Shown here in pieces: positions 5,377 through 11,783 of a stretch of 64,000 nucleotides of DNA. Numbering within the stretch: the first letter of the stretch is position 1; the number at the start of each line of letters is the position of its first letter. Both the position numbers and the translations under genes were made by a program. Source of the DNA: Phycisphaerae bacterium (lineage in GTDB: Bacteria > Planctomycetota > Phycisphaerae > SM23-33); assembly GCA_018335035.1 (NCBI GenBank), contig JAGXKT010000011.1, positions 1 to 64,000 of the forward strand, written 5' to 3'. The notes beneath the pieces are model-generated. The model was given only the letters and a program-made list of their open reading frames with translations. It searched no databases and was not told the origin of the DNA.

Positions 5377-5495
5377 GACGCCCGCCGGCACGCACATCGC
5401 GCCGCACCGCTGTTCACGTTGCATTGGCCCGCACCGAACGGTAGACTCGCCTTGCGCATGCCGGACCCGCGGTGACGGGCCGGCGAGGAACGGCC

Positions 5496-6236
5496 ATGGA
5501 CTTCAGCGCGATTGCCGACGATTTCTTCGTCAACGTCGACCTGCGGACGACGCTTCCGTTGCCGCGCAGCCGCGAGAGCGTGCTGCACTTCTTCGAGGCC
5601 GTCCAGCGTGACTTCCCCGCGATGACCAGCTTCTACGAGCGCGAAACGGGTGAGTTCGTGTTGGAAGGCGACCGCTCGGCCGGCAGCTACCAGTGGCTGG
5701 AGATGCTGGATCGCAACCTCGCCGCCGGCGCGTTCAACCCGCCGCAACTCGACAGCGCCTACGAACTGCATCGCTGGCTGCTGGAGCGCAGCGTGTACTA
5801 CGTCGGGCTCAGCGGGCTGGACACGGAATCGCTCGACGTGCTGTTCGGCTTCAACGTGGATTACACGGGCAACCGCGACGCGATCGTCGCCGAGGCGGTG
5901 CTGGGTGGCTCGCCGCTGGCGACGTTCCTGTGCAACCCGTCGGTGCGGCCCGTGGAATGCGAGCCCGGCGTCGTCGTGGCGCTGGATGACGACTGTGCCC
6001 TCCAGGCGCGGCTGCACATCGAAACGCGCTCCAGCAGTTACCAGGTCAGAACGGGCGAATACAGCGATGAACCCATCAGCGTGTACCTGACGGTGCGCCA
6101 GTACCCCCGCACGGGAGGCGTCTTCGACACCAAGGCCGCCTTTGCGCGCCAATGCGAACTGTGCGAGGACCTGACCGTCGAGCACGTCATTCCGCACGTC
6201 CTCCAGCCGATCTCGGCCGCCATCGCCACGCAGTAG
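5496..6236 (+). CDS. Conserved-looking protein of unknown function
   Basis: 246 residues with no signal peptide, membrane segment or cofactor motif that I recognise. The composition is that of a globular cytoplasmic protein, with segments LHFFEAVQRDFPAMTSFYER and SVYYVGLSGLDTESLDVLFG. The ATG at 5496 has a GAGGA Shine-Dalgarno at 5484-5488 and is preferred over an in-frame GTG at 5472. A strong hairpin follows the stop codon. Function unknown. Confidence 0.6.
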   Translation: MDFSAIADDFFVNVDLRTTLPLPRSRESVLHFFEAVQRDFPAMTSFYERETGEFVLEGDRSAGSYQWLEMLDRNLAAGAFNPPQLDSAYELHRWLLERSVYYVGLSGLDTESLDVLFGFNVDYTGNRDAIVAEAVLGGSPLATFLCNPSVRPVECEPGVVVALDDDCALQARLHIETRSSSYQVRTGEYSDEPISVYLTVRQYPRTGGVFDTKAAFARQCELCEDLTVEHVIPHVLQPISAAIATQ

Positions 6237-6393: not shown

Positions 6394-6544
6394 AAAAAAA
6401 TGGCGGGCCCGTCGCGGGGGGGGACGACAGGCTCCGCCGGTTATTCGAACCGGCCGGGGGGAACCGGTTCGAAAGGGGACCGCATTTCAAGCAGGGCGAC
6501 TTACCAAAAGGACCGTACGGCGTCAACCCTGTTACCGCCACACC
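6394..6544 (-). ncRNA. Candidate structured small RNA (about 150 nt), family not identified
   Basis: On the minus strand a TTGCGA/TATAAT promoter (6551-6578) would start a transcript at about 6544 that ends at a seven-T run (complement of 6394-6400). Its 5' end TGGCGG (complement of 6535-6540) pairs perfectly with CCGCCA just before the T-run (complement of 6401-6406). Further nested pairings are ACAGG with CCTGT (6528-6532/6427-6431) and CGCCG with CGGCG (6518-6522/6435-6439). There is also a perfect 10-bp hairpin with a 10-nt loop (6444-6453/6464-6473). This end-closed rod resembles stable housekeeping RNAs in outline. I see no SRP, tmRNA or RNase P signature, so no family name is given; a 6S-like RNA is one possibility. 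Confidence 0.5.
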
Positions 6545-6550
6545 AAGCGT

Positions 6551-6578
6551 ATTATACCACCACACGGAGCCATCGCAA
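6551..6578 (-). promoter_or_regulatory. Sigma-70-type promoter for the minus-strand RNA
   Basis: Minus-strand hexamers are TTGCGA (complement of 6573-6578) and a perfect TATAAT (complement of 6551-6556), with a 16-bp spacer. The predicted start is G at about 6544. This is one of the best consensus matches in the window, and it does not precede a protein gene on that strand. Confidence 0.55.
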
Positions 6579-6853
6579 GAGCGGAAATAGGGTTGTTACC
6601 TTAGTTTTTCGCCTCCGTCTCAGAACGCTCCTCGGCGGCTGGTATGCGTCTAAGATCATCATTGACAACGCTTAAAAGGGGGCACATTGCCGGTTCATGC
6701 CCACGGGCGAGTGTTGCCCGCTTGAAACATCGTGGCATTTTTCGCGAATTGGCGCCGGTCGACGTCGCCGGCGTGGCGCCGACGCATCAGGATGAGGTAT
6801 TGCCATCGTTCGCCGCACACGCCACAATGCCGTCGGCCCCAGGAGAGACCTTC

Positions 6854-10393: not shown

Positions 10394-11734
10394 TCAGCCG
10401 TTCTCGCGAAGCGACAGGTCGTGTTCGGCCAGGCGCTCGCGAATCTCGTTGAGACTCGTCTGTCCGAAGTTCTTGCAGGCCAGCAGTTCGGCCTCGCTCT
10501 TCTGGACCAGTTCGCCCAGGGACGTCACCCCCAGCGTCTCCAGGGCACGGGCGGCTCGGATGGAAAGGTTCAAGTCCTCGATCGGCTTGGACAGCAGGCC
10601 ATCGTCCTTCAGCGGGATTTCCGGCGAGCGCGGACCCAGATCAGCGTACTCGCTGTCATCCTCCAGCGCCTGGCCGAGGTGAAGCCCCTTGGCCGCCAGC
10701 ATGTCCTTGATCTCGGTCAGTGACGTCTCGCCGAAGTTCTTATAGCCCAGCAACTCGGACTCCGTCGTGCGGATCAGGTCGCCGAGCGTATGGATGTTCA
10801 TCTTCTTGAGGCAGTTGCGGGCCCGCACCGACAGCTCGAAATCCGTCACCGGAATGTCCAGTACGGCGTTGCGCCGCGCCAGGCGGCGCGCCTGGTCCTC
10901 GTCATAGTACATGTTTTTGGCGGCCCTGATGTCCCGCAGGAACAACCGCGCCCGCAGGTGGTTCGGATTGGCGGCCAGGACGGATCGGACGGCCCGGGCG
11001 GCTTCGTCGTAGCGCCCGGCGTCTTCGAGCAGCACGGCGAGATTCAGCAGCGCGTGGGTGTACACCGGTGGGCGTGCGATGCACTCCTTGTACAACTCGA
11101 CGGCCTCCTCCTCGTGGCCGTGCAGATCGTAGAAGTAGGCCAGACGGAAGGTCGCCCCGGCGTGCGTCGGGTTGATGTCGCGCGCCTTGATGTAGGCCTC
11201 GCCGGCGCGTTCGGCATAGCCGGCCAGTTCGTCGACGAGCCCGCGCACGTAATGCCACTGGGCCATCTCGCCGGCGGACTTCTCCAGCGCCTTGACCTGC
11301 TTGGCGGCGGCATCGAGGTCGCCGGACAGCGCCAGAAGTTCCGCGCGAGCCAAGTCCATGTCCTCGGGCGGGTCCCACCCGCGTGCCTGGGCTCGGTCGA
11401 TCTCGCCCAGCGCGTCCTCGTAGCGTCCCAGGTGCTTGTAGCACATCGCCTGGACGTAGCGCCGGTCCTTGTTGTCCGTCGCATCGTTGAGAACATCCAG
11501 CGCCCGAGCGAAGTCGCACAGCGCATAGTGCACCATGCCGAGTTTCAGAGCGTCGCTTCCGGTGGGCGTCGCGCCGCCGACCTCGCCGAGGTCGCCGGCT
11601 AGCTGCCGAAGCTGCGAGGCCGCATCCGACGTCTCGAACAGAAGCTCGAGCAGGCGCTGGTAGTCGTCAAACGTCCACGTGTCCTGCTGCACCAAGGCAT
11701 CCAACTGGTCTTTGATCATCGCGTCCATCGCCAT
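10394..11734 (-). CDS. TPR protein with two RNA polymerase alpha C-terminal domains
   Basis: 446 residues. The first 270 are helical repeats of TPR type ([60 protein letters not shown]). Two RpoA alpha-CTD-like helix-hairpin-helix modules follow: [20 protein letters not shown] with [19 protein letters not shown], and [20 protein letters not shown] with [19 protein letters not shown]. In RNA polymerase this domain binds UP-element DNA and activators. Free-standing tandem copies fused to TPRs suggest a DNA- or protein-binding regulator, but no function is established here. The ATG at 11734 has GCGGGAG just upstream and is preferred over a GTG at 11746. Confidence 0.85.
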
Positions 11735-11783
11735 GTACTCCCGCACACACCGGACCGGTTATACGCCCGAGGCCGGCCGCATC

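Follow-up and report, generated by a model that had tools for sequence, protein, structure and literature searches.

Small RNAs that present C-rich loops on their hairpins have been described in Actinobacteria (6C/B11), Alphaproteobacteria (ar14/NfeR1 and the CcsR, or 'cuckoo', RNAs; RF02344, RF02791) and Xanthomonas (sX13), and the title of Mai et al. 2019 reportedly states that C-rich loops bind mRNAs chaperone-independently. In the excerpts of the primary reports on which we draw, B11 exerts repression on a 5' UTR that contains a 6-G tract, one of its two loops being enough (PMC10470900); NfeR1/ar14, which is Hfq-independent and under the control of a regulator, places CCUCCUCCC seeds on the start region of ntrB (PMC10746234); and sX13 depends on its own C-rich loops and on G-rich motifs in its targets, not on Hfq, with matching changes on both sides failing to restore control (PMC3771888). 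A Rhodopirellula-1 motif is named in the excerpted part of a 2010 survey of candidate RNAs (PMC2864571).

The candidate sRNA gene analyzed here comes from an uncultured planctomycete. It occupies the minus strand of a 617-bp intergenic gap within a 64,000-nt stretch of DNA to which we refer as the window (Table 1). The RNA shares with 6C/B11 two consecutive GC-rich hairpins, C-run loops, a span of about 75-85 nt and a U-rich end, but belongs to another phylum, has a 5' leader ahead of the hairpins and scores below the 6C cutoff. With ar14/NfeR1 and CcsR, it has in common hairpins showing C-rich loops; those RNAs, however, carry CCUCCUCCC anti-SD motifs, and ar14 has three hairpins, whereas the window RNA has two, with pure C-run loops, and the CCUCCUCCC motif is absent from its unpaired parts. 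The likeness to sX13 is one of architecture, namely, CCCC/CCCCC loops at the hairpin tips and an unstructured 5' region, with three hairpins in sX13 versus two in the window RNA. Judging from sequence comparison and from these analogies, we consider it probable, at roughly two chances in three, that the gene encodes a small regulatory RNA acting in trans, about 150 nt long, in which about 85 nt make up the conserved functional part.

Table 1. Features of the candidate sRNA locus, in window coordinates
Feature	Positions	Strand	Remarks
Imperfect palindrome TAAGGTAACAACCCTA, 16 bp	6588-6603	minus	Candidate FixJ/NarL-type response-regulator operator, 8 nt upstream of CTTG
-35 element TTGCGA	6573-6578	minus	CTTG core common among homologues
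-10 element TATAAT, preceded by TG	6551-6556	minus	Promoter scan and homologue comparison
5' leader, variable	6479-6544	minus	Unalignable among homologues; predicted start near 6544
CCCC tract, unpaired, ahead of hairpin 1	6475-6478	minus	In most, not all, homologues
Hairpin 1	6445-6472	minus	Loop CCCCCC at 6461-6456; 11 pairs
Hairpin 2, also the terminator stem	6402-6438	minus	Loop CCCCCCCC at 6423-6416; 14 pairs
T7 run, intrinsic terminator tail	6394-6400	minus	T-run in 20 of 20 aligned homologues
Convergent neighbor gene, outside the RNA gene	5472-6236	plus	Marks orthologous loci; no Pfam families

Two hairpins conserved as RNA

The first-pass annotation of this DNA described a minus-strand promoter, TTGCGA-16-TATAAT, with a start at about 6544, a perfect hairpin, an end-closing stem and a seven-T run, in a nested design of about 150 nt. 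The promoter is indeed present (two promoter-like sites in the 617 bp against a shuffle mean of 0.2), as are the perfect hairpin (hairpin 1) and the T-run, and the predicted start agrees by position. The closing stem, in contrast, dissolves upon comparison: the letters of TGGCGG (6540-6535) and CCGCCA (6406-6401) exist but their pairing is not conserved. CCGCC forms the 3' arm of the terminal hairpin, and its partner there, GGCGG (6438-6434), pairs in 19 of the 20 homologues; TGGCGG occurs in the leader of only two of the 20 rows, the window included. The nested shape gives way to two successive hairpins, without a rod. A simple terminator scan returned no sites, presumably owing to a bulge in the stem.

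The minus-strand fold of 6394-6546 beats shuffled sequences (z -2.44; three of 200 equally good). A BLAST search with a 227-base query against 60 genomes, its own included, aligned 19 loci (L002-L020; E up to 1.3e-8), mostly from near query position 143 to 226-227, which corresponds to window positions 6478-6394; together with the window, these form the 20-row alignment used for structure. The aligned portion comprises the C4 tract, both hairpins and the T7 run, whereas the leader differs among the homologues in sequence and length. RNAalifold proposed 25 pairs on this alignment, and the compensatory changes in relatives that the earlier annotation had suggested seeking are found at 11 of them, with both-side changes in 27 cells; none of 500 shuffles reached any of five measures, a control that related sequences can surpass. 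In total, 99.0% of 498 cells are paired. Shuffles give 94.1%, and sliding the structure along the alignment gives no more than 44.2%, the unslid position being favored in this last control by the origin of the structure in the same alignment. The two hairpins contribute alike, hairpin 1 with 99.5% of cells paired and both-side changes in five of 11 pairs, and hairpin 2 with 98.6% and six of 14. The best-kept letters are those of the loops and the T-run: the loops remain C-rich and several stem pairs vary in compensation. Upstream, the -10 and the CTTG recur in otherwise unalignable sequence. Comparison thus shows two hairpins under selection as RNA, with C-run loops kept, a T-run end and a predicted promoter of the sigma-70 type. 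A protein-coding reading was considered and rejected: open reading frames overlap the locus on both strands, but the leaders of the homologues vary in length and the stems compensate.

By the same kind of comparison, the RNA is present through most of one order of Phycisphaerae. A covariance model of the window family (R1) has matches in 25 of 35 genomes of the family at E<=0.01 and, at E<=0.05, in 28 of the 38 from the order, the weakest of these being other twin-hairpin RNAs; strong matches (E<=1e-10) occur in 24 of the 38, of which 20 had supplied rows to the model and four (G002, G006, G013 and G022) had not. In a phylum sample of 294 genomes, only the genome of the window itself matched, which is weak evidence of absence given the stricter filters and the few candidates scored per genome. 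In a class sample, six of 41 genomes matched at E<=0.1, two of them, G349 and G354, outside the family; by eye, the G349 match is a C-loop terminator. At the G354 locus (L137, G354:C25:28038-28126), from another family of the class, a third hairpin separates the two whose loops are C-runs, and a T-run is present, so that related designs may reach beyond the order. Separately, a degenerate pattern hit 15 loci in named genome contigs, all 15 in MAGs labeled Phycisphaerae, Phycisphaerales, Planctomycetales, Planctomycetota or planctomycete.

The neighborhood is often preserved, with several of the 25 loci compared being cut by contig ends: homologues of the convergent gene are found at 14, an acetyltransferase gene adjoining it (Pfam Hexapep; serine-acetyltransferase-like by our reading) at 12, and the promoter-side gene at 10. 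The latter, in the window, is a plus-strand gene with an uncertain start, its listed ORF opening at 6644. At L046, the convergent gene lies on the opposite side. Elsewhere in the window, the minus strand of 10394-11746 encodes a protein that combines tetratricopeptide repeats with two stretches resembling the C-terminal domain of the RNA polymerase alpha subunit.

The C-run loops: proposed pairing with mRNA and other readings

In the best reading, which rests on analogy, the window RNA works like 6C/B11 or sX13, with its loops pairing with mRNA G-tracts. It would be transcribed from the minus strand, from its own promoter to its own terminator; the C-run loops would serve as redundant seeds that base-pair with G-tracts within the 5' regions of certain mRNAs, whose translation would thereby be lowered without Hfq. 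Hfq was found in none of the 38 genomes of the order, in a search that was positive in five of 14 controls, which fits a chaperone-free sRNA.

The gene set, obtained with a simple codon-usage gene finder, comprised 350 genes in 444 kb of the own genome. Here, SD-like motifs are clear (GGAG at 102 of 349 starts versus 87 of 2237 internal ATGs), and GGGGG is unenriched ahead of starts (three of 349 versus 13 of 2237). Duplexes at or below -16 kcal/mol with the hairpin 1 loop are predicted at two starts, three upstream controls and one internal site (348 of each), and with the hairpin 2 loop, at 15, 13 and nine, respectively; the loop of a sister family, described below, yields 55, 31 and 30. By these counts, the sister family looks anti-SD-like, whereas any pairing of the window RNA with mRNAs would be expected to involve only a small number of specific targets. 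With G-runs unenriched and start duplexes barely above the controls in the 444 kb, a general anti-SD role of the window loops was rejected. G-run avoidance in genes, considered as a possible footprint of the RNA, was likewise rejected, G- and C-runs being depleted equally. Three genes with at least six Gs upstream of the start in the same 444 kb are leads, not targets.

An alternative is that the C-rich loops bind a protein, acting as a sponge or scaffold, rather than mRNAs. That the loops are pure C-runs with no general match to ribosome-binding sites would suit such a role, and with Hfq not found in the order, the partner could be another protein; against this, the characterized RNAs of the same architecture work by base pairing, so far as the excerpted reports go. 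To our knowledge, no C-run-binding protein has been described in Planctomycetota. All told, we regard protein binding as unlikely.

The Rfam comparison bears on a second alternative, that the window RNA genuinely belongs to the 6C family of Actinobacteria, having been acquired by transfer or retained through deep descent. Within the window, ARAGORN found no genes and Rfam yielded no matches at cutoff; in a 464-base search, the best resemblance was to 6C (RF01066), whose model aligned over its full length at 35 bits, below the cutoff of 47 (E 0.0054), followed by CcsR1 (23.2 bits against 65.3) and ar14 (21.7 against 58.8), that is, three families all with C-rich loops. Among the 20 homologue loci (57.6 kb), however, none matched 6C at E<=0.1, the only matches at this level being one locus to ar14 and one to CcsR1, both below cutoff, and short, GC-rich stems capped by C loops can arise by convergence. 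Membership in 6C thus appears quite improbable, and given the sub-cutoff scores, we do not file the window RNA under 6C, CcsR1 or ar14.

Could the conserved element be a mere terminator of the neighboring genes, preceded by a functionless hairpin? Hairpin 2 with its T7 run would make a good terminator, and the ORF of the convergent neighbor ends 158 nt off. But hairpin 1 is kept as well as hairpin 2, a box-anchored scan finds a -10-like box 46-162 nt upstream of the hairpins at 13 of 25 loci, and termination needs no C-run loops, so that this reading retains only a slender chance, slightly less than that of 6C membership. A 6S-like RNA, as the first-pass annotation had surmised from the length and the apparent closing stem of the single sequence, can practically be discarded: there is no Rfam 6S match, the closing stem is not conserved, and the shared shape is that of two C-run-loop hairpins, not of a long open rod.

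The broader surmise of that annotation, a structured RNA with a promoter and a terminator of its own, gains strong support from the compensatory changes and the conserved promoter elements, and it was right to recognize no SRP, tmRNA or RNase P, none of which is matched by the Rfam models. Its suggestion that the RNA might be new holds insofar as no Rfam family reaches cutoff, although the kind, a C-rich-loop sRNA, is already known. We therefore call the window RNA a new family of a known kind, given that no Rfam 15 family covers it and that literature searches, a listing that is not proof, found no study of planctomycete sRNAs; the novelty is relative to Rfam 15.

A shared promoter box and a candidate regulator

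Control of sRNAs by response regulators is exemplified by GacA, which acts on rsmY/Z. In the window, as in the control of fixK by FixJ, a 16-bp palindrome resembling the FixJ site, given as TAAGTAATTTCCCTTA in the excerpted source (PMC4999443), lies just upstream of the -35 element; between this site and the box of the homologous locus L015, TAAGGTGTTTACCTTA, 12 of 16 positions are identical. Unlike in both of these systems, the regulator here is a candidate identified solely by the box that its promoter has in common with the sRNA, and the box itself is a candidate operator.

A box scoring at least 10 at 28-31 nt from the -10 is found at 11 of 25 homologue loci, the window included (nine of the 11 served to build the matrix). 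The corresponding rate is 0.37% for 3000 random 220-nt stretches drawn from 380 kb of plain genomic sequence. At the other 14 loci, no clear box occupies the expected position. A pattern search of the own genome, with one mismatch allowed, gave 12 matches versus 10 with the reversed-pattern control, so most of these matches are attributable to chance. The only perfect match besides that of the window lies upstream of a response-regulator gene with receiver and LuxR/GerE domains (L094/L082, G000:C7:12020-12664), where the gap from box to CTTG is 10 nt rather than the 8 nt seen at the sRNA. At the regulator loci of other genomes, the box scores at least 10 in seven of 21, from five genera by their listed codes, and not in the remaining 14; the background for this comparison, with a matrix including one seed more, is 0.47% of 3000 random 350-nt stretches. 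One of the single-mismatch palindromic boxes of the own genome (L085, G000:C10:2694-2709) is followed downstream by an ORF that carries a LEPRLMLDA-like stretch close to its start.

The shared box and the likeness to the FixJ site make a FixJ/NarL-type response regulator the leading candidate for the activator of the sRNA. Such a regulator would bind the upstream palindrome, raising transcription of the sRNA, and would also control its own gene.

A sister family and the twin-hairpin repertoire

Of 18 weak R1 matches that we inspected, 17 look by eye like twin hairpins whose loops are C-rich, and most of these also show a T-run and, close by, a TATA-like box; at L063, the first loop is without a C-run. 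One set among them forms a sister family, with anti-SD-like loops (GGUCUCCCUCCRCC; UCUCCCUCC) and with a conserved 5' part, GUCCGCUGCACCC...GGGUUGCGGC; a GUCCGCUGCACCC/GGGUUGCGG part is likewise conserved. The sister model R2, built on an alignment of four sequences (A2), finds matches in 37 of the order's 38 genomes at E<=0.001 and in 35 at E<=1e-10. A genome has up to five such matches, some of which are faint detections of the family to which the window RNA belongs (G000:C46 at 9.3e-6, for example). In the class sample, five of 41 genomes match at E<=0.01, four of the family and G058, weakly. The own genome harbors two sister copies, L060 (G000:C73:49255-49362) and L079 (G000:C51:5154-5258). 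At cutoff, Rfam identified nothing in 19 twin-hairpin RNA loci apart from one adjacent tRNA. At L072 (G009:C140:5947-6427), R2 matches three times within 500 bp, which suggests a tandem cluster of C-rich-loop RNAs. Upstream of the sister loci L118, L122, L124, L125, L126, L128, L131 and L132, a TAAAG-N17-CCGA motif recurs with constant 17-nt spacing (eight of 18 loci, at least one locus being cut by a contig end and possibly misread); the motif recalls sigma-28-type promoters, which have shorter spacing.

It is conceivable, although we offer this only as a tentative picture, that this order of uncultured Phycisphaerae, in which Hfq was not found, employs twin-hairpin RNAs in two tiers: a near-universal, often multicopy, anti-SD-like family, and the C-run family of the window under a FixJ-type regulator, independent in origin from 6C and the cuckoo RNAs. 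With the window RNA, Planctomycetota would gain a new RNA family and, counting the sister family, an entire class; our literature searches found no sRNA study for this phylum. The C-rich-loop hairpin design would also recur once more among distant bacteria, raising the question whether this is the simplest build of an Hfq-free riboregulator. Moreover, the shared promoter box would make the putative regulator-to-sRNA circuit directly testable.
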